Source: Saccharothrix syringae (GTDB lineage: Bacteria > Actinomycetota > Actinomycetes > Mycobacteriales > Pseudonocardiaceae). From it: a stretch of DNA of 64,000 nt. This document shows, piece after piece, positions 50,406-64,000 of this stretch. The notes under the pieces were generated by a model. That model did no database searches and was not told the origin of the DNA. It saw only the letters and a program-made list of their open reading frames with translations. The translations under genes and the position numbers were made by a program. The stretch covers positions 7,936,001 to 8,000,000 of the forward strand of contig NZ_CP034550.1 in NCBI RefSeq assembly GCF_009498035.1, written 5' to 3'. Numbering within the stretch: the stretch's first letter is position 1; each line of letters opens with the position of its first letter.

Positions 50406-51176
50406 TCAGACGCGGGGCATGGCTTCCACCGGGGTCCAGTCCTGGTGCTTGCCCGGTTCGTCGTCGCCGGAGGAGATGCCGCGCAGGCGGCGGTTCACCC
50501 ACGGCAGCACGTGCTCGCGGTAGTAGCGGGCCTCGGCCATCAGGCCGCGGGTCGCCGCGGGCCCCGGCTCGACCGCGTGCGCCGGCTGCGGGTGCCCCAG
50601 CGCGGTGAGCACGCGCGAGGCGACCCGCCGGTGCCCCGCGCTGTTGAGGTGCAGCCGGTCCGGCGCCCAGTACTCGGGCCGCCGGATCTCGGCGTCGCCG
50701 AACATGCCCACGTACAGCACGTCGTACCGCGCCGCCAGCCGCTCGATCGCCACCGTCAGCGCCGCGCCCCGCCGGTGGATCACCCGCCCGAGCGGCAGCC
50801 GCGCCGACGGGTCCGGCCCGCTGAGCAGCACCAGCCGGACGCCGGCGTCCAGGCAGCGCCGGACCGCCCGCTCGGTGAGCGCGACCAGCCGCGCCGGGTC
50901 GATGCCGGGGCGCATCATGTCGTTGCCGCCGCCGTTGAACGTGATCAGCGTGGGTTGCGGGTCCAGCGCCAGCGCGGCGTCGAGCTGCGTGGTGGCGATG
51001 GGCTCCAGCAGGCGGCCGCGCACGGCGAAGTTGGCGTAGTGCACGGTCTCGCCGCGCCCGGTGGCCAGCCCGGCCGCGACCAGGTCGGCCCAGCCGCGCG
51101 GCGAGCCGTCGGGCAGCTCGTCGCCGACGCCCTCGGTGAAGCTGTCGCCGAGCGCGGCGTAGCGCAGGGCGCTCAC
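50406..51176 (-). CDS. SGNH/GDSL-family hydrolase
   Basis: A 256-residue esterase-like enzyme, GTG 51176, overlapping the SpoIIE gene stop by 4 bp (GTGA), so translationally coupled. Block I is [17 protein letters not shown] with the nucleophilic Ser near residue 11. Block II Gly is in YANFAVRG, block III is [12 protein letters not shown] with Asn, and block [15 protein letters not shown] provides the Asp-x-x-His pair near residue 177. No signal peptide is present, so it is cytosolic. SGNH enzymes hydrolyse esters or acyl groups; the substrate is unknown. Coupling to a phosphatase and STAS pair suggests a role in the same stress response, which is inference. Confidence 0.9.
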
Positions 51177-53602
51177 GGGCACCTCACCCGGCCGGCGGGG
51201 GCGGGGATCTCGGCCCAGACGACCTTGCCGTCCAGGGTGCTGCGGGTGCCCCAGCGCGCGGCGAGCGCGTTGACCAGGTGCAGGCCCCGCCGCCCCTCCC
51301 CCTCCGGGTGCGCCTCGAACAGCCTGGGCCGGTCGACGCCGCGGTCCACCACGTCGACGGTCAGCCGACCGCCGTCGTGGTGGAGCCGGAGCGTGCCCGG
51401 GTCCTCGGTGTGCTTGACGGCGTTGGTCACGAGTTCGCTGGTCACCGTCAGGGCGGCGTCGAGCACGTCGGTCAGCTCCCACTCCTCGAGTCGTTCGGCC
51501 ACGAAGGCCCGGGCCAGTGCCGGGACGCCGGGGTGCGCCTCCAGCGGCATGGTGGCCACCCGCCGGTGCCCGGCGACGTGGCGGACGTGCAGCAGGGCCA
51601 CGTCGTCGTCGTGGCGGCCCCCGGTGAGCCGGTGGATCAGCTCGTCGCAGGCGTCCTCCGGCGCGAGGTGGCCTGCCAGCGCGCGCAGGCCCTCGACCAG
51701 CGCGTCGATGCCCGTGGTCAGGTCCCGGTGGCGGTTCTCGACCAGGCCGTCGGTGTAGAGCGCCAGGCTCGCGCCCGGCGGGAACGGGGTGTGCTCCTGC
51801 CGGAACACCTCGCCCACGCCCAGCGGCATGCCCAGGCCCGCGCCGACCTGCCGCGCGGTGCCGTCGGGCAGGATCAGCACCGCGGGGAGGTGACCGGCGT
51901 TGGCGCAGGTCAGGGTGTTCTCCACCGGGTCGTGCACGGCGTAGAGGCAGGTGATGAAGGTGGCACCGGGCGTGCTGTCGGCGAGGTTGGACACGTGCGC
52001 GAGCACGTCGGCGGGCGGCAGGTCCAGCAGCGCGTAGGAGCGCACCGCGGTCCGGATCTGGCCCATGACCGCCGCCGCGGTGACGCCGCGGCCCACGACG
52101 TCGCCGATGACGAACGCGGTCCGCCCGCCGGGCAGCTCGACCACGTCGAACCAGTCGCCGCCGACCTCCGAGCCGGTGGCGGCGGGCAGGTAGCGGGAGG
52201 TGATCTCCAGGTCGGGCACCTCCGGCACGGTCGGCAGCATGCTGCGCGCCAGCTCGGTGGCCATGGTGCGCTGGCGGGCGAACAGCCGGGCGTTGTCCAG
52301 CGCGATGGCCGCGTACCCGGCGATGCCCTCGGCCAGCTGCTGGTGGCGCGCGGTGAACCGGCCCGGTTCGGCGTGGCCGAAGAAGAAGCCGCCCAGCACC
52401 TCCTGCGACGACGGCGAGATCACCGGCACGGCGAGGTAGCTGCGCACCGGCAGGTGCCCCGGCGGCATGCCGCGGTAGGGCTCGCTGAGGCCGTAGCGGG
52501 GGTCGGCGGTGATGTCGTCGGAGCGGACCGTGCCGACGCCCTTGAACGTCGGCTCGAACACCGCGGTGTTGCGCGGCATGGGGAACGCGGCGAACGCCTC
52601 CCGCGGCACGCCCGAGATCGTGTAGAGGGTGTAGGACTCGCCGTACTGGTCGACGAGGTTGTAGAAGAACGCGCCGAACGACGCCGCGGTGGCCTTGGTC
52701 GCCGCGTCCGTGGCGTCCTGGACCAGCGCGTCGAGGTCGAGCTGGGCGGTCAGCCGCTGCCCGACCACCTGGAGCACGTCGACCAGCTCGGCCTCGGCGC
52801 GGGTGTCCTGGAGGGCGCCCTCCAGTTCGGCGGCCTGGGTGCGGGCGACGTCCTCCAGGACCTCCAGGTGCTCGCGCAGCGCGTCGCGCTGGGCGGCCAG
52901 GCCGGCCTCGCCCGCCGCGCTCCACGGGTGGGCGAGCAGCCCGGCGCGGACGCTGACCGCGACGGCCCGGAACAGCTCGGCGGCCTCGGCGGGGATGGGC
53001 ACGCGGGAGGACAGCACCACGCAGAACAGGTCGCCGTTGGGCAGCACCCCGCCGAACCCGAGGACCGAGGCGATGCCCTTCTCGGCGAGGAACGCCCGGT
53101 CGCCGCCCGCGGCCGCGGGCACGTGGAACACGCCGAACCGGCCCTGACCGCCGTCGACGCCCCCGGCCACCACGTCCTCGGGCCGCACGCCCAGCTCAGC
53201 GACCAGGGTGGAGATCATCGGCGCGACGGGCACCGCGTCGGCGGAGGGCAGCGGGACCACGCGGTGCCCGGGCGCGGGGTCGTCCCCGGCGGTGGCCTCC
53301 AGGGTCAGGCACCGCAGGTCGTCGCCCGGCGGCCCGGGCAGCGCCTCCAGCACGTCCCGGCGCGCGTCCTCGGCGAGGTCGGCGAAGCGGCGGGTGGCGA
53401 ACAGCCGGACCAGCCGCAGGACCTGTTCGCCGCGCTCGTCGACGAAGTTCTCGCGCAGCAGGCGCACCACGGCCTCGGCGGCCGGGACGAAGCCGGGTGC
53501 CCGCTCGGCGGCCGCGCGCAGGGCGGCGGCCACCTCCACCATGTCGGCGAGCCCGAAGGTGGCGAAGTCGTGGCCGCGCCGGGTGGCCGGGTCGGCGGTC
53601 AT
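51173..53602 (-). CDS. GAF-SpoIIE phosphatase-HATPase multidomain signalling protein
   Basis: An 809-residue cytosolic regulator starting at ATG 53602, which overlaps the stop of the STAS gene (ATGA). Residues 1-250 form an undefined N-terminal sensory region. A short coiled coil then leads to a GAF domain at about 285-440 ([26 protein letters not shown], then [25 protein letters not shown]). The PP2C/SpoIIE phosphatase at about 455-665 carries metal-site Asp residues in [26 protein letters not shown], with [13 protein letters not shown] and [17 protein letters not shown]-terminal HATPase_c domain at about 690-805 has [12 protein letters not shown] and [12 protein letters not shown]. The protein combines a phosphatase and an anti-sigma-like kinase domain, so it may both phosphorylate and dephosphorylate STAS antagonists such as the neighbouring gene's product. 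Confidence 0.93.
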
Positions 53603-53955
53603 GGCCGGGGGTGCCCGTCGGGCCCCGCCGGAACCTCGTCGACGATGGTCAGGAGCTGGTCCAGCGACGTCATGGTGATCGCCGCCCGGACCTGGGAGCG
53701 CAGCGCGGCCAGGCTGAGCGAGCCGCCGGCCACCCGGCTGGCCTTGTGCAGGCGGACGAGGGCGCTCAGCGCGCTGGAGTCGCAGAAGGTGAGGTCGGCG
53801 AGGTCCAGCACCAGCGCGCCGCCCCGGGCGGCGAGGGGTTCGGCGACGGCGAGGAGCTGCGGGGTGGTGCCGTAGTCCAGCTCGCCGGCCACCGACACCA
53901 CGGTGTCCCGGTCGCGCTCCCGGACCCCCACCGACAGCGGCAGCGCTTCGTCCAC
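53599..53955 (-). CDS. STAS-domain anti-sigma factor antagonist
   Basis: A 118-residue single STAS domain protein starting at GTG 53955 after GAGGAGG. It has [16 protein letters not shown] (strands 1-2, helix 1) and [26 protein letters not shown], in which the Ser pair in DSS is the usual phosphorylation site (about residue 60). The stop codon overlaps the start of the SpoIIE phosphatase gene, so the three genes STAS-phosphatase-SGNH are one coupled operon. Its product is the expected substrate of the phosphatase. Confidence 0.93.
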
Positions 53956-54158
53956 CCTCGCCTCCTCAGACCCCGTTCATCCACCGGAGCCTAACGCGAG
54001 ACGGTGACGCGTCCGCAGGACGGCGTGCAGCGTGACCGGGTGTTATGAGATCGCCCACCCATTACCTGGCCGAGTGTCACCCGACCGGTGCCCGTTCGGC
54101 CGGCACTGATCGACCCGGTTGCCCGGCGCGTCGCCGATCAGCGTGGTTGAGTAGTCCT

Positions 54159-54581
54159 GTGACAACCCCGGACGAGACGACACCCGCCGAGCAGGCGGGC
54201 ACCACGACCGGCCCGTGGACGCGGGTCGAGCCGCTGGCCGACGGCCAGGCGGTGGTGGTGCGGGTCGGTGGCGACATCGACCAGAAGACGGCCGACGTGC
54301 TGGACAAGGGCCTGGACGAGGGCCTGGCCAAGGCGGTCGAGGCCGGGGCGCTGCTGGTCGTGGTGGACCTGCAGGAGGTGGGCTTCGTCGCCTCGACCGG
54401 CCTGTCGTCGCTGATCCGGGTGCACAACGCGACCAGGGACAAGGGCCTGGAGCTGGTCGTGGTGCTGCCGGACGAGCACCGGCTGTCCCGGCTGCTCTGG
54501 CTGACCGCGCTGAGCCGCATCCTCACCGTCACCACGTCCGTCGAGCAGGCCCTGGCGCAGGCTCCTCGCAACCCTGCGTGA
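54159..54581 (+). CDS. STAS-domain anti-sigma factor antagonist
   Basis: A 140-residue STAS protein starting at GTG 54159. Its core reads AVVVRVGGDIDQKTADVLDKGLDEGLAKAVEAGALLVVVDLQEVGFVASTGLSSLIRVHNATRDKG; the phosphorylatable position is in ASTGLSS, slightly different from the DSS of the neighbouring family member. A Thr/Glu-rich N-terminal extension of about 25 residues is probably disordered. It is divergent from the other STAS gene, 203 bp away, and convergent with the CHAP-like gene. Both STAS genes probably belong to the same partner-switching network. Confidence 0.9.
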   Translation: MTTPDETTPAEQAGTTTGPWTRVEPLADGQAVVVRVGGDIDQKTADVLDKGLDEGLAKAVEAGALLVVVDLQEVGFVASTGLSSLIRVHNATRDKGLELVVVLPDEHRLSRLLWLTALSRILTVTTSVEQALAQAPRNPA

Positions 54582-54588
54582 CCACTCG

Positions 54589-55401
54589 TCACACGAGCGC
54601 GCGGAACACCATCGGGCGCGTCGAGACCGGCTTGTACTGGTCCACCACGTTCTCGTTGGCGCCCCACCAGTAACCGGTCGGCACGCCGGCGGCGTCGGTG
54701 CCGATGAACAGCCAGCCCCGGCCCACGCCGCTGTACTCGGTCGCGCCCACCGCCCGCGTGTCCCGGAAGGACTGGTAGGGCGAGGACGCGCTGGTGCTCG
54801 CCACGCCGTGCGGGTTGCTGGTGCTGTCGATCACCGGCACGGCCCACTCGGCCGTCGCCGCGTCGCCGTCCCGGTCGTACGCCTGCGGCGCGCCCGCCAC
54901 CACGGCCACGTGCCCGCTCGCGTCGCCGCTGCCGCCCGCGGTGTCGTTGTACTTGATGGCGATCACGTCACCGGCGACCAGGGAGGCGACGGTGGTCCGG
55001 GTGGCGAAGTGGTCGGCGCCCGCGGTGAGGCCGTCGTAGTACTTCGCCGCGTTCGGGCTGGTGCTGCCGAACTCCGCCTGGAGGTAGGAGTCGGTGGCCC
55101 AGGAGAAGGTGTGCTTGAGGGCCTGGGTGAACAGCGGGGCGCACTTGGCCTTGCTCTCGTACGTGGTGGGCTGGCCGGGCGTGCCCCACACCACGCTGGT
55201 CGCCACGTCGGCGTGGCCCTTGGCGCCGGGGTAGAAGTTGTAGGTGTCCTGCGCGGGCCAGGCCAGGGCGTTGAGGTTGTCGGCCAGCTCCGCCAGCTCG
55301 GCGTAGAGGGTGGCGGACGTGGCGTGGGCGGGCGTCACCGCGGTCAGGGTGACCGCCGCCGCGGTGGCGGCGGAGGCGATCAGGGCGCGGAGTGCGGGCA
55401 T
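54589..55401 (-). CDS. Secreted CHAP/NlpC-like protein
   Basis: A 270-residue exported protein starting at ATG 55401 with GAGAGG upstream. Residues 1-28 are a Sec signal peptide (MPALRALIASAATAAAVTLTAVTPAHA) with an A-H-A cleavage site. The mature part shows a candidate Cys-His hydrolase layout: a Cys in SKAKCAPLFTQALKHTFSWA, then GDVIAIKYN and SGHVAVVAGAP, the order found in CHAP and NlpC/P60 amidases or peptidases that act on peptidoglycan or isopeptides. A hydrophilic YWWGANENVV stretch lies near the C-terminus. Overall identity to a named family is not certain. The gene is convergent with the second STAS gene and divergent from the SnoaL-like gene. Confidence 0.7.
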   Translation of the reverse strand: MPALRALIASAATAAAVTLTAVTPAHATSATLYAELAELADNLNALAWPAQDTYNFYPGAKGHADVATSVVWGTPGQPTTYESKAKCAPLFTQALKHTFSWATDSYLQAEFGSTSPNAAKYYDGLTAGADHFATRTTVASLVAGDVIAIKYNDTAGGSGDASGHVAVVAGAPQAYDRDGDAATAEWAVPVIDSTSNPHGVASTSASSPYQSFRDTRAVGATEYSGVGRGWLFIGTDAAGVPTGYWWGANENVVDQYKPVSTRPMVFRALV

Positions 55402-55577
55402 GGCGTTCCTCTCGAACCGTGCGGCGGGCGGGTCGTCGGCCGCCGCTTCCGGGGAGGAAGACCCGCCCGCCGGACCGCTGATACGCGGCGCCGGTGAGAT
55501 CAACTTCACGGTAACGCCCGGAGCGCGGGCGGCGAACCGGGAGCGGTCCCGGGGAGACGCGGCCGCCCCACCTCCGA

Positions 55578-55625
55578 GCCGACCGACCACCCAACCGACC
55601 ACCACCCAACCGACCACCACCCGCC
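55578..55625. repeat. Short 15-bp direct repeats before the SnoaL-like gene
   Basis: The segment CCGACCACCACCCAA and close variants occur about three times in a row (roughly 55582-55625). They lie within the 343-bp divergent gap 55402-55744, which also holds the GCGATAA boxes. No protein is supported here. Confidence 0.6.
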
Positions 55626-55662
55626 CCGGCACATCACCCGGTCGCCGCAAAAAGCGGAAACC

Positions 55663-55694
55663 GCGATAGCCGGGCGATAACGGGCGGTAAGCGG
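55663..55694 (+). promoter_or_regulatory. Three direct GCGATAA-like boxes at 10-11 bp spacing
   Basis: GCGATAGC (55663), GCGATAAC (55674) and GCGGTAAG (55684) repeat with starts 11 and 10 bp apart, ending 50 bp before the SnoaL-like start codon. Direct repeats of this size, one helical turn apart, are how SARP activators bind. The next intergenic region beyond the SARP gene has the same core in more copies. Control by the adjacent SARP is inferred. Confidence 0.5.
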
Positions 55695-55744
55695 CGCGGA
55701 GGAGGTTGGGCGGGGCAAGGTCGCCTACGGAGGGGAACAGGGGC

Positions 55745-56128
55745 ATGGCAGCGGACCGGTCAGGGGGCGGCAGACAGCCCGGTGCCGCGGTCACCGCGGT
55801 GGGGGTGGAGCACGTCCGGTTGAGCTACGAGTACCTCGACCGCAGCGACATCGACGGGTACGGGTCGCTGTTCGACGCCGACGCCGTGCTGCACCGGCCC
55901 GGTGAGCAGGAGGTGCGGGGCCGCGCGGAGATCGAGGCGTACCAGGCCCGCCGGCACCAGGTCGATCGACACCACGTCGACGACGTGATCGCCGCCGAGG
56001 GCCGGGTGGCCGTCATCGGCAGGCTCGTCGGCACCGGGGGCGAAGTCGGTTTTGCCGACTTCTTCCTGTTGAGCGAACACGGGTTGCTTCGGTCCCAGCG
56101 GACCTTCTTCTTCGCCCCGGCCGACTGA
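55745..56128 (+). CDS. SnoaL-like (NTF2-fold) protein
   Basis: A 127-residue protein starting at ATG 55745 with GGAGGGG upstream. The family layout is clear: HVRLSYEYLDRSDIDGYGSLFDADAVLHRPGEQEVRGRAEIEAYQARRHQ (helix, then the acidic loop and first strands), ending in GLLRSQRTFFF. NTF2-fold SnoaL-like proteins act as polyketide cyclases, isomerases or small-molecule-binding proteins; a His or Asp usually lines the pocket and DRHHVDD may supply it. It is divergent from the CHAP-like gene and sits upstream of the SARP gene with 140 bp between. A role in the same locus is inferred from position and shared boxes. Confidence 0.75.
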   Translation: MAADRSGGGRQPGAAVTAVGVEHVRLSYEYLDRSDIDGYGSLFDADAVLHRPGEQEVRGRAEIEAYQARRHQVDRHHVDDVIAAEGRVAVIGRLVGTGGEVGFADFFLLSEHGLLRSQRTFFFAPAD

Positions 56129-56268
56129 TCGGCTCAACGCCGCTGCTCCGAGGCGTGCCGGGTCCCCGACGGCGAACGGACGCTTTGACTTCGGTGACAC
56201 GCACCCGCGGTACCGGATCCCGTGACTGCCGGTTACCGTCCAAAGGGGCTTAGCACTGGGAGTCGGCG

Positions 56269-59253
56269 TTGGAAGTCGGGACGGGTTTGACGCAGGTCAT
56301 TCCGGTGTACCGGGTCTTGGGGCCCCTGTACGTCGCGGATGGACCCGAACGGATCGGCAAGGTCCCGCCGGGACGCCAGCAGATCGTCCTGGGCGCGCTG
56401 CTCCTGGAGGCGAACCGGGTGGTCAGCATCGACCACCTGATCGACGCCATCTGGGACGACTCGCCACCGGCCACCGCGCGCACCCAGGTCCAGATCTGCG
56501 TCTCGGCGCTGCGCAGCAACCTGGCGGCCGTCGACCGCGGGAACGCGATCACCACCCGGTCGCCGGGCTACCTGATGCGCGTGGCGGACGGCGAGCTGGA
56601 CGCGCACGTGTTCGCCCGCCTGACCGCGGAGGCCGAGGCCCTGGTCCGGGCGGGTGACCCGCGCGCCGCCGCGGACCTGCTGCGGCAGGCGCTGGCGCTG
56701 TGGCGCGGTCCGGCGCTGAGCGGCACCACCAGCCGCGCGCTGCTGGCCCGCGCCGCCCGGCTGGACGAGGACCGGTTGGCGGTGCTGGAGACCTGGCTGG
56801 ACCTGGAGCTGAACGCGGGCAGGCACCGCCAGGTGGTGGGCGAGATCGGCGCGCTGGTCGCCCAGCACCCGCTGCGGGAGCGGCTGCGCGGGCAGCTGAT
56901 GCTGGCGCTGTACCGGTCGGGCAGGCAGGCCGAGGCGCTGGAGGTCTACCGCGCGGGCCGGGAGCTGCTGGTCGACGAGCTGGGCCTGGAACCCGGCGGC
57001 GAGCTGCGCCGGCTGGAGACGGCGATCCTCTCCGGCGACCCGGCGCTGACCGTGCGCGCCGAGGCACCGCCCGTCGTCGAACTCCCCCGGCCCGCGCCCG
57101 CACCCGCGCCCGAGGCGGTGGTGCCGCTCCAGCTGCCCGCCGACATCGGGGACTTCACCGGCCGCGCCGCGCTGGTCGCCCGCGCGCTGGAGCTGCTGGC
57201 GCCCGGCGGGCGCGCGACACGCGTCGTGGCGCTGGTCGGCAAGCCCGGCATCGGCAAGAGCGCGCTGGCCGTCCACATCGCGCACCAACTGGTGGAGGAG
57301 CACTTCCCGGACGGCCAGCTGTACTGCGACCTCGGCGGCACCCGCGCCCACCCGGCGACCGCGGCCGACGTGCTCGGCCGGTTCCTGCGCGCCATGGGCA
57401 TCCCCGGCACCTCCATCCCCGACTCCGAGGACGAGCGCGCCGAGATGTACCGGCAGCTGGTGGCGCGCAAGCGGATGCTCGTCGTGCTCGACGACGCCGC
57501 GGCGGAGCGGCAGGTGCAGGCGCTGCTGCCGGGCAGCAGCACGTGCTCGGTGATCGTCACCAGCCGCGCCCGCCTGACCGGGCTGCCGGGCGCGCGGGTG
57601 CTGGAGGTCGAGGTGCTCGACCACGACGAGGCCACCGCCATGCTCGCCACGGTCATCGGCCCGGAGCGGGTCGCCGCCGAACCGGCCGCCGCCACCGCGC
57701 TGATCCGCCTGGTCGGCTGCCTGCCGCTGGCGCTGCGCATCGTGGCCGCGCGGCTGGCCGCCCGGTCGAGCTGGTCGCTGGCGTGGATGCTGGAGCGCCT
57801 GTCCGACGAGCGGCGGCGGCTCGACGAGCTGGCGCACGGCGAGATGATGGTGCGCGCCAGCCTGGCGCTGACCTACGACGGCCTGGACGTGGCGTCGCGC
57901 CGGCTGCTGCGGCTGCTGGGCGCGCTGGACGGGCTGAGCTTCCCCACCTGGGTGGCCGCGGCGCTGCTGGACGTGGACCTGATGGGCGCCGCGGACCTGC
58001 TGGAGCGGCTGGTCGACGCGCAGATGCTGGAGCTGGTGGCCATCGACGTCACCGGCACGCCGCGCTACAAGTTCCACGACCTGATCCGGTTGTTCGCCAA
58101 GGAGCAGCTCGAACAGGTGGAGGAGGCGGACGAGCGGCGCGCCGCGCTGCGCCGGGTCGCGGGCGGCTGGCTGGCCCTGGCCGGCGAGGCGCACGCGCGC
58201 GTCTACGGCGGCGACTTCACCTCGCTGCACGGCGACGCGCCGCGCTGGCGCCCATCACAGTCCTATGTGGACCGGCTGTTGGCCGATCCGCTGGTGTGGC
58301 TGGAGTCCGAGCACCCGAACCTGTGCTCGGTGGTCGAGCTGACCGCCGCGGAGGGCCTGGACGAGGCGTGCTGGGACCTCGCGGTCGCGCTGGTGACGCT
58401 GTTCGAGGCGCGCTGCTACTTCGACGACTGGGAGCGCACGCACCAGCAGGCGCTGGCCGCCGTGCGCGCGGCGGGCAACGCGCGGGGCGAGGCCGCGCTG
58501 CTGTGCTCGCTGGCGTCGCTCCAGCTGAGCTGGTCGCGGGCGCGGGTGGCGCGCGACCTGCTGGGCCCCGCGCTGCGCACGTTCGAGGAGCTGGACGACG
58601 TGCGCGGGCTGGCCCTGGCCCGGCGCAACCTGGCGCTGGCCCACCACCGACTCGGCGACAACGAGCAGGCCGCGCCGGTCTACCTGGCCGCGCTGGAGGG
58701 CTTCCGGTCGGCGGGCGACCCGGTCGGGCAGGCGTACGTGCTGGCCCAGGTGGCGCAGATCGACCTGGAGAACGGCGAGCAGGAGCTGGCCGCCGGGCGG
58801 CTGTACGAGGCGCTGGACATCTGCCGCGAGTTCGGCAACCAGCGGGTGGAGGTGCAGGTCCGGTACCGGTTGAGCGACCTGATGGCGCGCCAGGGGCGGC
58901 ACCGGGAGGCCGAGGAGGCGTTGACCGAGCTGCTGGAGGTGGTCCGCGCCGGGCGCGACATCGTGGGCGAGGCGCGGGTGCTGCACCGGCTGGCGGTGGT
59001 GAAGGTGGCCCTGGGCGACCCGGCGGCCGCGGAGGCGCTGCTGCGGGCGGCCCTGGAGGTCCGGGAGCGGGCGATGGACCACGGCGGTGCCGCGGAGACC
59101 CGGGCGGAGCTGGCGGTGGTGCTGGCGGGGCTGGGTGACCGCGCTCAGGCGGTCGGCTTGCTGGGCCGGGCGATCACCACGTTCGCGGAGCGCAACATGA
59201 GCGCGGCGCGGTTGCGGGCGCAGCAGGCCCTGGAGCTGATCCGGACGGGCTGA
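56269..59253 (+). CDS. SARP-family activator with NB-ARC and TPR domains (AfsR-like architecture)
   Basis: A 994-residue regulator. The start is TTG 56269, supported by GGGAG six bases upstream; later GTG codons would remove part of the winged helix. Residues about 10-100 are the OmpR-like DNA-binding domain (YRVLGPLYVADG through GYLMRV). Residues about 110-255 are the BTAD domain (VFARLTAEAEALVRAGDPRAAADLLRQALALW). An NB-ARC NTPase follows at about 300-570, with Walker A GKPGIGKS near 324 and a Walker B-like RMLVVLDDAA near 405. TPR-like helical repeats fill about 650-990. AfsR-type SARPs activate biosynthetic genes by binding 11-bp direct repeats just upstream of the -10. Its stop lies 12 bp from the end of the convergent repeat-peptide gene. 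The two flanking regions with GCGATAA boxes are likely targets. Confidence 0.92.
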   Translation: MEVGTGLTQVIPVYRVLGPLYVADGPERIGKVPPGRQQIVLGALLLEANRVVSIDHLIDAIWDDSPPATARTQVQICVSALRSNLAAVDRGNAITTRSPGYLMRVADGELDAHVFARLTAEAEALVRAGDPRAAADLLRQALALWRGPALSGTTSRALLARAARLDEDRLAVLETWLDLELNAGRHRQVVGEIGALVAQHPLRERLRGQLMLALYRSGRQAEALEVYRAGRELLVDELGLEPGGELRRLETAILSGDPALTVRAEAPPVVELPRPAPAPAPEAVVPLQLPADIGDFTGRAALVARALELLAPGGRATRVVALVGKPGIGKSALAVHIAHQLVEEHFPDGQLYCDLGGTRAHPATAADVLGRFLRAMGIPGTSIPDSEDERAEMYRQLVARKRMLVVLDDAAAERQVQALLPGSSTCSVIVTSRARLTGLPGARVLEVEVLDHDEATAMLATVIGPERVAAEPAAATALIRLVGCLPLALRIVAARLAARSSWSLAWMLERLSDERRRLDELAHGEMMVRASLALTYDGLDVASRRLLRLLGALDGLSFPTWVAAALLDVDLMGAADLLERLVDAQMLELVAIDVTGTPRYKFHDLIRLFAKEQLEQVEEADERRAALRRVAGGWLALAGEAHARVYGGDFTSLHGDAPRWRPSQSYVDRLLADPLVWLESEHPNLCSVVELTAAEGLDEACWDLAVALVTLFEARCYFDDWERTHQQALAAVRAAGNARGEAALLCSLASLQLSWSRARVARDLLGPALRTFEELDDVRGLALARRNLALAHHRLGDNEQAAPVYLAALEGFRSAGDPVGQAYVLAQVAQIDLENGEQELAAGRLYEALDICREFGNQRVEVQVRYRLSDLMARQGRHREAEEALTELLEVVRAGRDIVGEARVLHRLAVVKVALGDPAAAEALLRAALEVRERAMDHGGAAETRAELAVVLAGLGDRAQAVGLLGRAITTFAERNMSAARLRAQQALELIRTG

Positions 59254-59265
59254 CCGGACCGGCCG

Positions 59266-59577
59266 TCACGCCTGCCTCGGGCCCCACGGGGTGTCGTCAC
59301 CGGTCGGCCCCCAGGGGGTGTCGTCGCCGGTCGGCCCCCAGGGGGTGTCGTCGCCGGTCGGGCCCCACGGGGTGTCGTCGGTGGTCGGACCCCACGGCGT
59401 GTCGTCGCTCGTCGGGCCCCACGGGGTGTCATCGCCGGTCGGACCCCACGGGGTGTCGTCGGTGGCGACGACCGCGGTCGGGGCGGCCTCGGCGTGGGCG
59501 AGGGTGGCGCCGAGCACGGGGGCGAGCACGATGGCGGCGAACGCGGCGGTGGCGGCGGCGATCTTGTTGATGCGCAT
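59266..59577 (-). CDS. Small secreted protein with seven tandem DDTPWGP repeats
   Basis: A 103-residue protein of no family I recognise. It starts at ATG 59577 with AGAGG upstream. Residues 1-29 are a Sec signal peptide (MRINK, hydrophobic core, ending GATLAHA) with probable cleavage before EAAP. A ten-residue linker EAAPTAVVAT leads to seven consecutive units at residues 40-100: DDTPWGP followed by TG, TS or TT, so the period is nine residues. The last unit is followed by RQA. The repeats are almost invariant in protein but the DNA codons vary somewhat, so the peptide sequence itself seems selected. No Cys is present; Trp, Pro and acidic residues dominate. It might be a wall- or metal-binding surface protein, or a precursor from which repeated short peptides are cut. 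A TAGCGT -10 (59634-59629) and GATAA boxes precede it. Confidence 0.85.
   Translation of the reverse strand: MRINKIAAATAAFAAIVLAPVLGATLAHAEAAPTAVVATDDTPWGPTGDDTPWGPTSDDTPWGPTTDDTPWGPTGDDTPWGPTGDDTPWGPTGDDTPWGPRQA
59278..59460 (-). repeat. 27-bp coding repeats of the DDTPWGP protein
   Basis: Six full 27-bp units and one partial unit in tandem encode the seven DDTPWGP copies. The units differ at a few third-codon positions and in the two-residue spacer (TG, TS, TT), so the array is not a fresh perfect duplication. Confidence 0.9.
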
Positions 59578-59655
59578 TTTCGGACCTCTTCCCTGGCCGG
59601 TCCCGGCGTTCCGGGCTTGCTGGAACCGACGCTAGGAATTGCGCCCATCCCCGGA

Positions 59656-59729
59656 TTATCACGGCGCGAAGGACCCGTTATCGGGGTCGTTATCACGGCC
59701 CGCGCTGCCCCGCGATAACGCCGCGATAA
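59656..59729. promoter_or_regulatory. GATAA boxes in the divergent promoter between the DDTPWGP and XRE genes
   Basis: Three minus-strand boxes (GTGATAATC, CCGATAACG, GTGATAACG; cores at 59656, 59678 and 59690) face the repeat-protein gene. Two plus-strand boxes (GCGATAACG and GCGATAAGC; cores at 59714 and 59725) face the XRE gene. Spacings are 22, 12 and 11 bp. The cores and spacing echo the boxes at 55663-55694. The two sets are oriented toward their respective genes. The regulator is inferred to be the SARP encoded between the two regions. Confidence 0.5.
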
Positions 59730-59835
59730 GCGCGTGGAGATGCTGGACCAGGGCCTAACCGCACGACCGTTACGGCGCGTCGGAGCCGTGTGGTGGCCGG
59801 TACATCGGCAGCACCTCATCGCCACTGGAGCGGGC

Positions 59836-61143
59836 ATGGACCGGAATTCATCGCAGCACCAATTCGGTGAACTGCTCAGGCAGCACCGGATGAAGCGGGG
59901 CGCCACGCAGCGGCAACTGGCGGACTTGTCCACCATCAGCGTGCGGGCGATCCGAGACCTGGAGGCCGGGCGGGCGAGCAGGCCGCGCCGCGACACCGTG
60001 CGGCTGATCGCGGAAGGGCTGCGGCTCAGCGGGCGCGAGCTGTCCTCGTTCGAGGCGGCGGCGCTGCGGGCGCGCGGCGGCGTCGAGATCGACCTGGTGC
60101 CCGACCTGGACGCCGGGCCGCCGCCGTCCGGGCTCGACGCCCTGGTCGGCCGGGACGCCGAGGTCGCCGCGCTGCTGGACCTGCTCGGCGAGGGCGGTTC
60201 GCGGCTGGTCGCGGTGACCGGGCTGCCCGGGGTCGGCAAGACCCGGCTGGTGGTGGAGGTCGCCGGGCGGCTGCACGAGTCCGGCTCGGTCCGCGTGCTG
60301 TGGGACGCCGCGACCGCGAACCCGGGCGGCGCGGCCGGGCGGTTGCGGCTGCTGGTGCACTCCGCGCTGGGCCGGGTCGGGGACGGCGAGGGCCTGGACC
60401 CGCTGGCCTCGCTCATCGGCGACCGGGAGCTGCTGCTGGTGCTCGACGGGCACGACGCGGGCTGGCCGGACCCGGAGCGGGTGCTGGCCCTGCTGCACCG
60501 CTGCCGGCGGCTGCGGCTGGTGCGCACCGTGCGCGCACCGCTGGACGTCCCGGGCGAGCGCGTGATCGCGCTGCCGCCCCTGGCCCCGCCCGACGCGGTG
60601 CGGCTGCTGGCCCGGCTGGCCGGGCAGGTCTGCCCCGGCACCACGACCGGCACCCGGCCCGGCACCGGCTCTGGCATCGGCACCGGCTCCGCGACCGGCC
60701 CCCGAACCCGCACCCGCACCGAGGCCGCGCTCGCGGAGCTGGCCGACCGGCTCGACGGCCTGCCGGGCGCGCTGGAGGCGGCCGCGTCCTGGCTGCTGGT
60801 CTACCGCCCCGAGGAGCTGCTGGAGCTGGTGCGCGCCGACCCGCTGGCGGTGACCGGCGACCGGCTGCCCGACCTGCGCGCCGCGCTGGCGGGCGCGATG
60901 TCCGGTGTGGACGGCGAGTGGGCGGCGCTCGCCGCGGCGGGCGGCGACTGGACCGTGCACGACGCCGCGCGGCTGACCGGCGTGCCCGCGGTCGCGTGCG
61001 CGCACCTGGTGCGGCGCCTGCGCTTGCTGGGCCTGGTGCGGCCGGTGGGCCGCGACCGGTTCCGCGTGCTGGCCCTGGCCGGCGCCGCAACTGCCGCACG
61101 GCTGCCGGTCGCGCTGCCGGTCGCCGGTACCCGGAACTCCTAG
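59836..61143 (+). CDS. XRE-type HTH regulator with STAND/NB-ARC-like NTPase domain
   Basis: A 435-residue regulator starting at ATG 59836 with GGAG seven bases upstream. The HTH is FGELLRQHRMKRGATQRQLADLSTISVRAIRDLEAGRASRPRRDTVRLIAEGLRLSG (residues 9-66). An NTPase domain follows, with Walker A GLPGVGKTRL near 131-140 and a Walker B-like ELLLVLDGHD near 197-205. A Gly/Thr-rich low-complexity stretch (about 273-296, TTTGTRPGTGSGIG onward) interrupts the ARC region. A winged-helix-like end (VHDAARLTGVPAVACAHLVRRLRLLGLVRPVG) completes the protein. There are no C-terminal TPRs, so it is shorter than many relatives. It lies 41 bp upstream of the mutase operon, which it may regulate or be cotranscribed with. 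Confidence 0.88.
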   Translation: MDRNSSQHQFGELLRQHRMKRGATQRQLADLSTISVRAIRDLEAGRASRPRRDTVRLIAEGLRLSGRELSSFEAAALRARGGVEIDLVPDLDAGPPPSGLDALVGRDAEVAALLDLLGEGGSRLVAVTGLPGVGKTRLVVEVAGRLHESGSVRVLWDAATANPGGAAGRLRLLVHSALGRVGDGEGLDPLASLIGDRELLLVLDGHDAGWPDPERVLALLHRCRRLRLVRTVRAPLDVPGERVIALPPLAPPDAVRLLARLAGQVCPGTTTGTRPGTGSGIGTGSATGPRTRTRTEAALAELADRLDGLPGALEAAASWLLVYRPEELLELVRADPLAVTGDRLPDLRAALAGAMSGVDGEWAALAAAGGDWTVHDAARLTGVPAVACAHLVRRLRLLGLVRPVGRDRFRVLALAGAATAARLPVALPVAGTRNS

Positions 61144-61184
61144 TTTCGTCGTTGAAAGACCATCCCGCTACGCAAGGGGTTGCC

Positions 61185-61634
61185 ATGGACTTGGCGGAAC
61201 CGACCAACGGCCACCGGGGCCTCGACGTCGTGGTGACGAGCCTCGCCTCCGACGCGCACACGTGGAACCTGGTGTACCTCCAACTGGTCCTGGAGGAACT
61301 GGGCCACCGCGTGGTCAACCTGGGCGCGTGCGTGCCCGACGACCTGCTGGTCACCGAGTGCGTCCGGCACCGGCCGGACCTGGTGGTGGTCAGCAGCGTC
61401 AACGGGCACGGCGCCCACGAGGCCAAGCGGGTCATCGGGCGGCTGCGCGCCCGCCCCGAGCTGGCCGCCACGCCGGTGGTCGTCGGCGGCAAGCTCGGCA
61501 TCGACGGCCCGGGCGGGCAGCGCCGCGCCGCCGACCTCACCGCGGCCGGTTTCGACGCGGTGTTCGAGGACGCGGGCAGCCTGGCCGCGTTCCGGTCCTT
61601 CCTGGACCGGCTGCCCGTGGGCGTGCGGTCATGA
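61185..61634 (+). CDS. Glutamate (methylaspartate) mutase, S subunit (B12-binding)
   Basis: A 149-residue cobalamin-binding protein, starting at ATG 61185. It aligns with GlmS/MutS: VVVTSLASDAHTWNLVYLQLVLEELGHRVVNLGACVPDDLLV, SSVNGHG and VVGGKLGI. The B12 His is in SDAHTWN: the family motif D-x-H-x-x-G has Asn at the last position here. With the E subunit it converts L-glutamate to (2S,3S)-3-methylaspartate by a radical rearrangement that needs adenosylcobalamin. The stop overlaps the start of the E-subunit gene (ATGA), so the two are translationally coupled and made in balance. Use of 3-methylaspartate in macrolactam starters or lipopeptides is known in actinomycetes. Which product is made here is unknown. 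Confidence 0.9.
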   Translation: MDLAEPTNGHRGLDVVVTSLASDAHTWNLVYLQLVLEELGHRVVNLGACVPDDLLVTECVRHRPDLVVVSSVNGHGAHEAKRVIGRLRARPELAATPVVVGGKLGIDGPGGQRRAADLTAAGFDAVFEDAGSLAAFRSFLDRLPVGVRS

Positions 61635-62911
61635 GCGACGGGTCGTTCGGCGGCTTCGTGGCCGCCGCCGCGGCCCGCGGCGAGCTGGTGGTCCAGCCGC
61701 GGATGGGCATCGGCGACCCGGCGGGCATGCGCGCCGGGCTGCTGGCGGTGCGCGGGGCGGGGGTGCGCGCGGTCGGCACCATCACCCTGGACAGCTTCAC
61801 CCGGGTCGGTGACCACGCGGCGGTGCGCGCCGCGCTGGCCGCGGGCGACGACCTCAACGGCTACCCGATCGTGGCCTACCCGCAGGCGATCACCCGGTCG
61901 GTGCTGGCCGGGGTGCACGACGCGGCGTTCCCGGTGCAGGTGCGGCACGGTTCGGCCCGGCCGCAGGACATCGTGGTGGCGCTGATGGCCGCCGGGCTGC
62001 ACGCCACCGAGGGCGGCCCGCTGTCCTACTGCCTGCCCTACAGCCGGGTGCCGGTGGCCGAGTCGGTGCGCGCGTGGGCCGAGTCGTGCCTGCTGCTGGC
62101 GGGCCTGCGCGAGCGCGGCGGCCGGCCGCACCTGGAGTCCTTCGGCGGCTGCATGATGGGCCAGCTGTGCCCGCCGGGGCTGCTGGTGGCGATCAGCGTG
62201 CTGGAGGCGTTGTTCTTCCGCCAGCACGGCCTGGGCAGCGTGTCGCTGAGCTACGCCCAGCAGACCCACCCGGAGCAGGACGCCGAGGCGGTGCACGCGC
62301 TGCGCGCGCTGGCCGCCGAGCACCTGTCCGACGTGGACTGGCACGTGGTGCTCTACACCTACATGGGCGTGTTCCCCCGCACGCCGCGCGGCGCGACCGC
62401 GCTGCTGGAGCGCGCGGCGGAGCTGGCCGTGCGCACCGGCGCGGCGCGGCTGATCGTCAAGACCGTCGCCGAGGCGCACCGCATCCCCACGGTCGCGGAG
62501 AACGTCGCGGCGCTGCGGACCGCGAGCCGCGCGGCGGCCCGCACCCGGCCCGGCGCGGCACCGGCCGACACCGGGGTGCTGGCCGAGGCGCGGGCCATCG
62601 TCGAGGCCGTGCTCGACCTGTCCCCCGACGTGGGCACCGCCCTGGTCCGCGCGGTCGAGCGCGGCTACCTCGACGTGCCCTACTGCCTGCACCCGGACAA
62701 CGCCGGGCGCACCAGGGCGGTGGTGGACGCGGGCGGGCGGCTGCGGTGGTCCCGGACCGGGGCGCTGCCGCTGGCCGGGCCGGTCGAGACCGTCCCGGTC
62801 GAGACCACCGCGGCCGAGCTGCTGCGCTCGCTGTCCCACGTGGAGCGCACCTTCGACGACGCGGCCCTGGACCACGACCTGGGCGCCGCGCACCCCGCCG
62901 GCATCGGCTGA
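61631..62911 (+). CDS. Glutamate (methylaspartate) mutase, E subunit (catalytic)
   Basis: A 426-residue catalytic subunit, ATG 61631. It has the GlmE signature path: VVQPRMGIGDPAGMRAGLLAV, GTITLDSFTRVGD, LNGYPIVAYPQAITRSVL, PVQVRHGSARPQDIV, EGGPLSYCLPYSRVPVAESVRAW, and LESFGGCMMGQLCPPGLLVAIS. The TIM barrel holds glutamate over the cobalamin bound by the S subunit. It is about 55 residues shorter than clostridial GlmE (483), as in some actinomycete biosynthetic forms; the shortage is mainly at the N-terminus. It precedes the AsnRS-like gene by 31 bp, with a GGAGGAG site between them. Confidence 0.93.
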   Translation: MSDGSFGGFVAAAAARGELVVQPRMGIGDPAGMRAGLLAVRGAGVRAVGTITLDSFTRVGDHAAVRAALAAGDDLNGYPIVAYPQAITRSVLAGVHDAAFPVQVRHGSARPQDIVVALMAAGLHATEGGPLSYCLPYSRVPVAESVRAWAESCLLLAGLRERGGRPHLESFGGCMMGQLCPPGLLVAISVLEALFFRQHGLGSVSLSYAQQTHPEQDAEAVHALRALAAEHLSDVDWHVVLYTYMGVFPRTPRGATALLERAAELAVRTGAARLIVKTVAEAHRIPTVAENVAALRTASRAAARTRPGAAPADTGVLAEARAIVEAVLDLSPDVGTALVRAVERGYLDVPYCLHPDNAGRTRAVVDAGGRLRWSRTGALPLAGPVETVPVETTAAELLRSLSHVERTFDDAALDHDLGAAHPAGIG

Positions 62912-62942
62912 CCCGACCGAATTCCCCTCCCGGAGGAGCGAG

Positions 62943-63953
62943 ATGGACACCACGACCGACACCGGCACGGCGACCCCGCTGCCGGCCAGTCCCCGCGAGC
63001 ACCTGGCGTCGCCGACGACCCGCGCGGTGCTGCGCGTGCAGCACGCGGTGCTCGACGCGGCGCGGGAACACCTGCGCGAGCACGGCTTCACCGAGATGCT
63101 GCCGCCGATCATCGGACCGGTCACCGACCCGGGCGCCCGCGGCGCCAAGCAGGTCGACGTGGACTACTACGGCCACCGGTACAAGCTGATGACCAGCGCG
63201 ATCCTCTACAAGCAGGCGTCGCTGACCGCGTTCGACAAGATCTTCTGCATCGCGCCCAACGTGCGCCTGGAGCCGCTGGAAACCAGCTCCACCAGCAGGC
63301 ACCTGGCCGAGTTCCACCAGATCGACGTGGAGGTCGCGGGCGCCTCCCGCGAGGACGCCATGGCCGTGGCCGAGGGGCTGGTGGCGCACGTGGTGCGGCG
63401 CGTGGTGGAGCGGTCGGCCGCGGAGCTGGAGGTCCTGGGCCGCGACCCCGACGCGTTCGCCGACCTGCTGTCCGGCCGCCCGTTCGAGCGCCGCGCGCAC
63501 GCCGCGGCGGTCGCCGACCTGCACGGCCTCGGCCACGACCAGAACCCCGACGCGGAGATCGACTGGACCGGCGAGGCGATGCTGTCGGCCAAGGCCAGCA
63601 GGCCGTTCTTCCTCACCGACTACCCCAAGGGCTCGCGCGGGTTCTACGACAAGGAGAGCCGCGATCAGCCCGGCCGGCTGCGCAACTTCGACCTGCTGGC
63701 CCCCGAGGGCTACGGCGAGCTGTGCAGCGGCAGCGAGCGGGAGCACGAGTACGGCGCGATCATCGCGCGGATGCGCGAGACCGGCGAGAACCCGGCCAAG
63801 TACGGCTGGTACCTGAAGATGGTCCGCGACGGCATCCCGGGCAGCGCGGGCTTCGGCATCGGCCTGGAGCGGCTGACCCGCTACATCGCGGGCCTGGAGT
63901 CGGTGTGGCAGGCCAGCGCCTACCCGAAGGTGCCGGGGGTGGTGTCGCCGTGA
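62943..63953 (+). CDS. Asparaginyl-tRNA synthetase-like enzyme lacking an anticodon-binding domain
   Basis: A 336-residue class II (D/K/N group) catalytic core starting at ATG 62943. Motif 2 is APNVRLEPLETSSTSRHLAEF (ATP and amino-acid binding Arg and Glu, near residues 100-120), EFHQIDVEV follows, and motif 3 is GFGIGLERLTRYIAGL (near 305-320). ELCSGSEREHEYG is the usual late active-site strand. The N-terminal OB-fold of AsnRS/AspRS is absent: the protein begins directly with the catalytic domain. Such AsnRS paralogs include archaeal asparagine synthetase (AS-AR), which amidates free aspartate. Sitting directly behind the 3-methylaspartate mutase, it probably activates aspartate or 3-methylaspartate for amidation or amide ligation. 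It overlaps the next gene by 4 bp (GTGA). Confidence 0.88.
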   Translation: MDTTTDTGTATPLPASPREHLASPTTRAVLRVQHAVLDAAREHLREHGFTEMLPPIIGPVTDPGARGAKQVDVDYYGHRYKLMTSAILYKQASLTAFDKIFCIAPNVRLEPLETSSTSRHLAEFHQIDVEVAGASREDAMAVAEGLVAHVVRRVVERSAAELEVLGRDPDAFADLLSGRPFERRAHAAAVADLHGLGHDQNPDAEIDWTGEAMLSAKASRPFFLTDYPKGSRGFYDKESRDQPGRLRNFDLLAPEGYGELCSGSEREHEYGAIIARMRETGENPAKYGWYLKMVRDGIPGSAGFGIGLERLTRYIAGLESVWQASAYPKVPGVVSP

Positions 63954-64000
63954 CCGGGCTGCGCGCGGGGACCTTCCCCGAGGCCGCGGTGCGCGAACGG
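63950..64000 (+). CDS. Start of a further operon gene, cut by the window edge
   Basis: GTG 63950 overlaps the AsnRS-like stop codon (GTGA) and opens a frame running to the end (VTGLRAGTFPEAAVRER). Seventeen residues are too few to name a family. The overlap places it in the mutase operon. Confidence 0.6.
   Translation, partial: MTGLRAGTFPEAAVRER

Follow-up and report, generated by a model that had tools for sequence, protein, structure and literature searches.

Why should an activator of the Streptomyces antibiotic regulatory protein (SARP) type, a small repeat peptide, an XRE-type NTPase and a glutamate mutase operon lie side by side at the right end of a 64,000-nucleotide stretch of Saccharothrix syringae DNA (contig NZ_CP034550.1, positions 7,936,001 to 8,000,000; the window), and what might they produce together? 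An initial annotation made from the letters alone had proposed one regulon with a 3-methylaspartate-derived or peptide-derived product and named a SnoaL-like protein, a SARP, a repeat peptide, an XRE-NTPase, a mutase and a protein resembling asparaginyl-tRNA synthetase (AsnRS); these genes were confirmed by open reading frames (ORFs) and profiles, and most of them belong together. It had also suggested following the sequence past position 64,000. In the source contig, a single-contig genome of 10.93 Mb (coordinates past 64,000 are given on the scale of the window), gene calls extended the operon through two nonribosomal peptide synthetase (NRPS) genes to a branched-chain aminotransferase (BCAT), and the NRPS cluster is bisected by the window end. 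We consider it probable that an NRPS cluster of about 38.7 kb under the control of the SARP, reaching from SnoaL1 to BCAT, starts at the right end of the window, with a streptolydigin-type (slg-type) supply of 3-methylaspartate, an octapeptide as the product and the small peptide as an accessory of the SARP.

The block from SnoaL1 to BCAT was found in identical gene order in two further members of the genus, G172 and G647 (the same-genus genomes include Saccharothrix sp. S26 and S. yanglingensis), where NRPS1 and NRPS2 are 78–80% identical to those of the window, the module layout is likewise 5+3 and the small peptide gene was also found. This synteny, the eight-module NRPS downstream with its SlgN1-like adenylation domains and the GATA repeats shared between promoters support the proposed single regulon, from which a gene read as CHAP-like has to be removed. 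The features are collected in Table 1.

Table 1. Features of the predicted cluster (positions on the scale of the window)
Feature	Position	Strand	Remarks
GATA direct repeats, 11-bp phase	55665..55695	+	GATA at 55665/55676, GGTAAG 11 bp further; before SnoaL1
SnoaL1, SnoaL/NTF2-like protein	55745-56128	+	PF12680 42.2 bits; upstream of SARP
SARP activator, AfsR architecture	56269-59253	+	994 aa; Trans_reg_C-BTAD-NB-ARC-TPR
Small exported-looking peptide, seven DDTPWGP repeats	59266-59577	-	Convergent with SARP
Three GATAA boxes facing the peptide gene	59656..59694	-	TTATC at 59656, 59678, 59690; spacings 22 and 12
GATAA direct repeat, 11-bp phase	59714..59729	+	59714/59725; before XRE and biosynthetic operon
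XRE-type helix-turn-helix and AAA_16 NTPase	59836-61143	+	Profile match; first gene of mut operon
MutS, B12-binding glutamate mutase subunit (SlgE-type)	61185-61634	+	PF02310 57.2 bits
MutE, catalytic glutamate mutase subunit (SlgE-type)	61631-62911	+	PF06368 291 bits
AsnA-type AsnRS-like enzyme (SlgZ-type)	62943-63953	+	NF005052 472.8 bits
GltS-like FMN protein (SlgE3-type)	63950-65227	+	425 aa; only first 51 bases inside the window
Major facilitator superfamily pump	65224-66534	+	
Amidase	66527-67945	+	
MbtH	68205-68411	+	
NRPS1	68451-82718	+	4755 aa
NRPS2	82715-92761	+	3348 aa, terminal thioesterase
SnoaL2, second SnoaL-like protein	92789-93157	+	
BCAT, branched-chain aminotransferase	93350-94423	+	Last gene of the cluster

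For comparison, genome contigs were searched with the AsnRS-like protein, which gave 180 relatives, and the best 80 loci were kept; they differ in length, and 54 exceed 17 kb. Fifteen of them encode a SARP 51–81% identical to that of the window over most of the protein and are called the SARP clade here, which leaves 65 others. At a query coverage above 70%, the 80 loci held a relative of MutS in 76 cases, of MutE in 77, of the GltS-like protein in 76 and of MbtH in 41. The streptolydigin supply genes slgE1, slgE2, slgE3 and slgZ and their roles are described in one report (PMC5357945), and another gives PDB entry 4gr5 as SlgN1 of streptolydigin, which activates (2S,3S)-beta-methyl-L-Asp (PMC11253843). 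A protein identical to 4gr5 over 567 residues is encoded in locus L030 from Streptomyces lydicus NRRL ISP-5461. Because this SlgN1-encoding locus carries relatives of all four genes, MutS, MutE, the AsnRS-like and the GltS-like protein (the quartet below) are read as an slg-type 3-methylaspartate supply set. The earlier remark that no described cluster with this set was known to its author does therefore not hold for the metabolic part, which matches slgE1, slgE2, slgZ and slgE3; the NRPS cluster itself is a new representative of a familiar type, in which an slg-type supply set would serve a predicted octapeptide NRPS. It differs from the streptolydigin cluster in that a free-standing MbtH-A protein (SlgN1) is used there, whereas eight NRPS modules are encoded here. 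No relative of the SARP, the XRE-NTPase or the small peptide was found within 21 kb in L030.

The individual enzymes were assessed by alignment. When MutE was aligned to 1cb7, eight positions matching the active site of GlmE, the glutamate mutase of Clostridium, proved to be conserved without exception in 77 of 77 relatives, and MutE keeps the Arg, Glu and Tyr positions with which GlmE binds its substrate. The MutS and MutE genes overlap by 4 bases. The B12 motif DxHxxG was not found in MutS, which reads DAHTWN instead, and the final N recurs in all 76 relatives with a residue at this position, including that of L030. The proposed coupling of mutase and AsnRS-like genes in one operon was borne out as far as the three genes are concerned, but the third product passes the cut-off for asparagine synthetase A (NF005052, 472.8 bits, cut-off 368) and not that for AsnRS (206.6 bits, cut-off 414). 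Its alignment to the AsnRS 1x54 begins only at about residue 124, i.e., without the anticodon-binding N-terminal part. Such an AsnA-type enzyme is likely to amidate 3-methylaspartate; that it would instead aminoacylate a tRNA in a tRNA-dependent step is suggested by its class II D/K/N synthetase fold (PF00152, 196.2 bits) and appears very improbable given the missing anticodon-binding part and the two cut-offs.

The remaining member of the quartet, the 425-residue GltS-like protein, gave matches just to Glu_synthase and FMN_dh. In glutamate synthase, the 3Fe-4S cysteine motif has the form C-x5-C-x4-C, and this motif was found in 0 of 77 relatives. As the motif is absent throughout and the protein encoded here has no glutaminase domain, the name glutamate synthase is doubtful, and the protein, which is nearly always encoded beside the mutase, may catalyse a reaction other than glutamate synthesis. 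The XRE-NTPase was confirmed by its XRE and AAA_16 matches. Relatives of it (more than 70% coverage) occur in 34 of the 80 loci, including Streptomyces loci without the SARP clade, and its best paralogue in its own genome reaches just 62.3 bits; it may be a second regulator linked to the quartet.

According to a motif scan, NRPS1 consists of five modules, an adenylation-thiolation (A-T) module without a condensation (C) domain followed by four C-A-T modules, and NRPS2 of three C-A-T modules and a thioesterase. The pocket residues, which were assigned in an alignment of ours by means of GrsA numbering and anchor motifs, read DALHMGGIF, DALHMGGIF, DATDLGGGF and DGLFMGGVY for modules 1 to 4 and DALHMGGIF, DATKMGGGY, DAWFLGHVV and DVWHVSLVD for modules 5 to 8; position 278 was left out of the comparison with G172 and G647. 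The code of module 4 is presumably Ile-like, that of module 7 Leu-like and that of module 8 Ser. A literature search for the pocket codes gave no match. The A domains of modules 1–6 are nearest to SlgN1 (60–63% identity, compared with 43% for modules 7 and 8), and among 95 A domains compared, the SlgN1-like group lies at or above 58% and the next group at 48%. In their pocket codes, the domains deviate from SlgN1 (DALQIGGGF) at 2–5 of 9 positions. The closest solved structure for module 1 was 4gr5 with 345.9 bits. Elsewhere in the S. syringae genome, no A domain exceeds 49% identity to module 1 across the full length; a single partial match, 144 residues long, has 51%. NRPSs linked to the quartet in L044-L063, many of which are Streptomyces loci, have a recurring pocket DSYYWG(A/V)VF and fall outside the SlgN1-like group.

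At the end of the NRPS operon, BCAT (425.3 bits, cut-off 307) stands beside SnoaL2, a small isomerase-like protein which is merely KSI/SnoaL-like. This arrangement, with the presumably Ile-like code of module 4, resembles the pairs DsaD/DsaE and MfnO/MfnH. In these pairs, L-allo-Ile is made by an aminotransferase plus isomerase logic, as stated in two reports (PMC7459860, PMC9943842). By analogy, SnoaL2 and BCAT are a possible L-allo-Ile pair. Genes for SnoaL2 and BCAT lie close together beside the quartet also in L036 and L037, and A domains of the DALHMGGIF type were seen in L037 and in BCAT-bearing Lentzea loci.

The large SARP activator named by the initial annotation was confirmed, with Trans_reg_C (32.1 bits), BTAD (158.8), NB-ARC (63.4) and TPR (68.1) matches, and so was the SnoaL-like protein upstream, a relative of which is present in 12 of the 15 SARP-clade loci. 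The NCBIfam AfsR model scores 620.7 bits against the SARP, below the equivalog cut-off of 1430, and by this measure the protein is AfsR-like and not an AfsR orthologue. Among 119 matches in its own genome, some of which are pieces of one gene, the best paralogue reached 444 bits and 38% identity, compared with the 51–81% of the clade members.

Boxes of the GCGATAA type had been noted around the SARP gene, and these were confirmed and could be sharpened to GATA direct repeats in 11-bp phase. Direct repeats with this phase are found in the target promoters of SARP regulons, and the feature is present at the SnoaL1 and XRE promoters. The pattern YGATA-N6-YGATA, which was picked after these sites were seen, occurs 8 times in the 10.93-Mb genome, including both promoters, and its reversed control once. 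Two GATA at an 11-bp distance (GATA-11) were counted 23 times in 18 clade loci (367 kb; the 15 plus L115, L118 and L121) versus once in the 65 other AsnA-like loci (1.13 Mb), and spacings of 9, 10, 13 and 14 bp were not found in the 18 loci. GATA-11 stands before SnoaL1 in L005, L006, L007-L011 and L115, before the XRE gene in L005, L006, L028, L040, L051 and L115, and before the peptide gene in L007-L011; four of the 23 matches are in L029. In the genus of L118, L121 and L214-L220, looser yet conserved GATA elements precede the peptide. That this placement is kept across Saccharothrix, Lentzea, Actinokineospora and Hamadaea is, at sequence level, a stronger argument than the counts, and the GATA repeats are likely to be the operator of the SARP.

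The small peptide (PW-peptide) had been described as an exported peptide with seven repeats. Its seven DDTPWGP units were found, and export was judged by eye from a signal-peptide-like start. In the gene of the window, the units differ by silent changes only (38 synonymous, 0 non-synonymous), and summed over six genes there are 143 synonymous versus 7 non-synonymous nucleotide differences, counted pairwise within each gene so that the pairs are not independent, while 14 synonymous and 49 non-synonymous single changes are possible in one unit. This excess points clearly to selection on the repeat unit at the protein level. A small ORF that begins with a hydrophobic stretch and carries [DS][TSN]PW[GNE] close to its C-terminus was found in 14 of the 15 SARP-clade loci and in 0 of the 65 others, a contrast which rests on few clades and on a motif derived from members already known; a scan of the 80 reversed locus sequences gave 0 matches. 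L029 lacks the strict motif, and a later relaxed search revealed a small ORF ending ...LADTPWTRCGRPPSET near the SARP end, which was not counted. The core is present once in L007-L010, L028, L040 and L051; L011 has two copies, L042, L068, L073 and L075 (SNPWN) have four or five, and loci of the genus Saccharothrix have three to eight. The shortest peptides, those of L040 and L051 (31–32 aa), and the candidate of L029 have no clear signal sequence.

Pairs of SARP and peptide were also found beyond these loci. A tandem DTPWG pattern matched 30 of 390 genomes of the family, and among the 18 matches inspected 15 were judged genuine, all 15 with a clade SARP adjoining; six of these genomes belong to the genus of the window and nine to Lentzea. 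In G673, G719 and G728, which also matched, neither a genuine peptide nor a SARP was found. In 394 class-level genomes the tandem pattern matched 21 including S. syringae itself, and the other 20 are unlike repeat peptides as judged by the matched strings alone; DTPWG followed by a stop occurred in 8 of the 394; in none of the 8 is the ORF small and hydrophobic at its beginning, and none has a match to the SARP or the XRE protein up to about 1.5 kb away. In an earlier pattern search with matches in 30 of 249 genomes, those that fell into frames of about 3,500 aa, or into other long or interrupted frames, were discarded as chance matches of low complexity. A tree of SARPs was built in which the loci without a peptide were represented by 10 out of 21 (L029 apart), together with 6 paralogues from the S. 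syringae genome. In it, the 27 peptide-bearing SARPs lie on one side of a branch with support 92/83, or 28 with L029 (100/99), and SNPW-type motifs are confined to one nine-member subclade (100/100). The motif type co-segregates with the SARP subclade. Lentzea albida has two pairs on one contig (as checked by the identity of 10,000 bases), with SNPWE in the cassette cluster (L009) and DTPWG elsewhere (L215). A protein search with the peptide gave 12 relatives, the named ones merely as 'hypothetical protein', and among the matches listed in literature searches for DTPWG, DDTPW, SNPWN and SNPWE none was related by title and start of the abstract. Within the searches made, the pair of SARP and PW-peptide looks new and undescribed, and its function is proposed from association.

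In the explanation that we favour, the SARP would bind the GATA repeats and activate its own operon, the peptide gene and the biosynthetic operon. The mutase would turn glutamate into 3-methylaspartate, part of which would be amidated by the AsnA-type enzyme. Modules 1–6 would then load 3-methyl-Asp/Asn or similar beta-branched residues, with an Ile/allo-Ile-like residue at module 4 for which SnoaL2 and BCAT might provide L-allo-Ile, module 7 would load a Leu-like residue and module 8 Ser, and the octapeptide would be released by the thioesterase. The weakest part of this explanation concerns the PW-peptide, which would act as an accessory to its cognate SARP, with signalling to the SARP or modulating its activity as the most likely role.

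Several observations weigh against this explanation. The pocket codes are alike in modules 1, 2 and 5 only and differ in 3, 4 and 6. The SlgN1-like A clade also includes Val-like codes (DALWVGGVF), and in the PDB search for module 1, LgrA with 268.7 bits, the best structure other than SlgN1, follows close behind; because of these two findings, the likeness to SlgN1 does not prove loading of 3-methyl-Asp. Other GATA spacings occur in the clade loci as well (12 bp seven times, 8 bp three times and 22 bp once), and strict GATA-11 is absent in 6 of the 18, namely L042, L068, L073, L075, L118 and L121. Members had already been seen when the GATA pattern and the peptide motif were formulated, and the genomes are related. 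In addition, numerous loci with the quartet carry different regulators or show no NRPS in the stretch covered.

For the role of the PW-peptide, two readings lead. The first, which we put forward tentatively, is that of a pheromone: the peptide would be exported, cut to a [D/S][T/N]PW piece, re-imported and recognised by the neighbouring SARP through its TPR/NB-ARC part, and multiple copies per precursor would increase the dose. In Firmicutes, regulators of the RRNPP family such as those of the Rap-Phr and Rgg-SHP systems sense re-imported peptides, and the locus resembles them in that a regulator with TPRs lies beside a small exported-looking peptide gene and the type of peptide tracks the type of regulator; in contrast to them, the regulator is a SARP (BTAD/NB-ARC) and not Rap, NprR, PlcR, PrgX or Rgg, and up to 8 copies of the core occur here. 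The small ORFs with a mostly hydrophobic start and a conserved C-terminal or repeated core, their position next to a clade SARP, the shift of motif type with SARP subclade and the two different pairs in Lentzea albida are all consistent with a pheromone, and the GATA boxes before the peptide gene would make positive feedback possible. However, the members without a clear signal sequence (L040, L051 and the L029 candidate), the judgement of export by eye and the few clades behind the motif contrast speak against it.

Somewhat less likely, the PW-peptide might be an effector that acts downstream of the SARP, as a small repeat protein and direct SARP target in the manner of AfsS, the small protein encoded beside AfsR and its target. 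Both systems have a SARP with NB-ARC and TPRs and a gene for a small repeat protein next to it, and the tandem short repeats and the GATA boxes in the promoter region of the peptide gene would fit. They differ in that the SARP described here lies far under the AfsR cut-off and the PW-peptide looks exported, with signal-peptide-like starts in most members and a single copy of the core in several loci. That the peptide is the precursor of a ribosomally synthesized and post-translationally modified peptide (RiPP), or an extracellular carrier or protection factor for the NRPS product, is improbable, as its exported look, strongly conserved core and GATA boxes suggesting co-regulation are set against the lack of any RiPP-modifying family among the genes annotated in the cluster and the occurrence of the pair away from this NRPS in nine genomes.

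Whether related genomes keep these genes together or scattered in unrelated contexts had a mixed answer. The block is syntenic in two genomes, yet 65 of the 80 loci have the metabolic genes and no SARP of the clade. SARP and peptide lie away from the metabolic genes in nine Lentzea-genus genomes, with no supply cassette around the pairs in the 12.9–20 kb examined for each, and beside a different cluster in G648. As the metabolic genes and the pair of SARP and peptide each occur apart from the other, the locus consists of two modules joined here, a portable regulator-peptide pair and a supply and NRPS module. In G648 (L212/L227), the set of SARP, SnoaL1 and peptide adjoins a cluster in which a carrier protein, lantibiotic-dehydratase-like proteins and a second SARP are encoded alongside NRPS-type genes; GATA-11 repeats were seen there in both directions between the second SARP-type gene and an operon starting with the carrier protein and a lantibiotic-dehydratase-like protein.

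To the left, the cluster appears to begin with SnoaL1. The CHAP-like and STAS genes of the window were excluded because the genes called to the left of SnoaL1 in G172 and G647 include no match to them. The reading of 54589-55401 as a CHAP/NlpC-like protein was also abandoned: it has no Pfam or NCBIfam match, and a single-sequence model with a mean pLDDT of 34.3 was useless. Further left, at 51173-54581, ORF translations were read as a PP2C-like phosphatase-type protein and two STAS/anti-sigma-antagonist-like genes.

From the cluster, a new octapeptide with a high content of 3-methyl-Asp/Asn-like residues is predicted, and GATA-11 as a putative operator would give a means of listing the SARP regulon. 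What SARPs with NB-ARC and TPRs sense is, as far as we know, largely open. Tentatively, this SARP clade might be controlled by its own adjoining peptide, with the [D/S][T/N]PW core (1–8 copies) as ligand, which would amount to peptide quorum sensing with multi-copy precursors, portable between antibiotic-type clusters and with different pairs side by side in one genome. A SARP clade with a linked peptide gene would thereby offer a concrete ligand candidate, and synthetic peptides of the DTPWG or SNPWN type might be of use for silent clusters.

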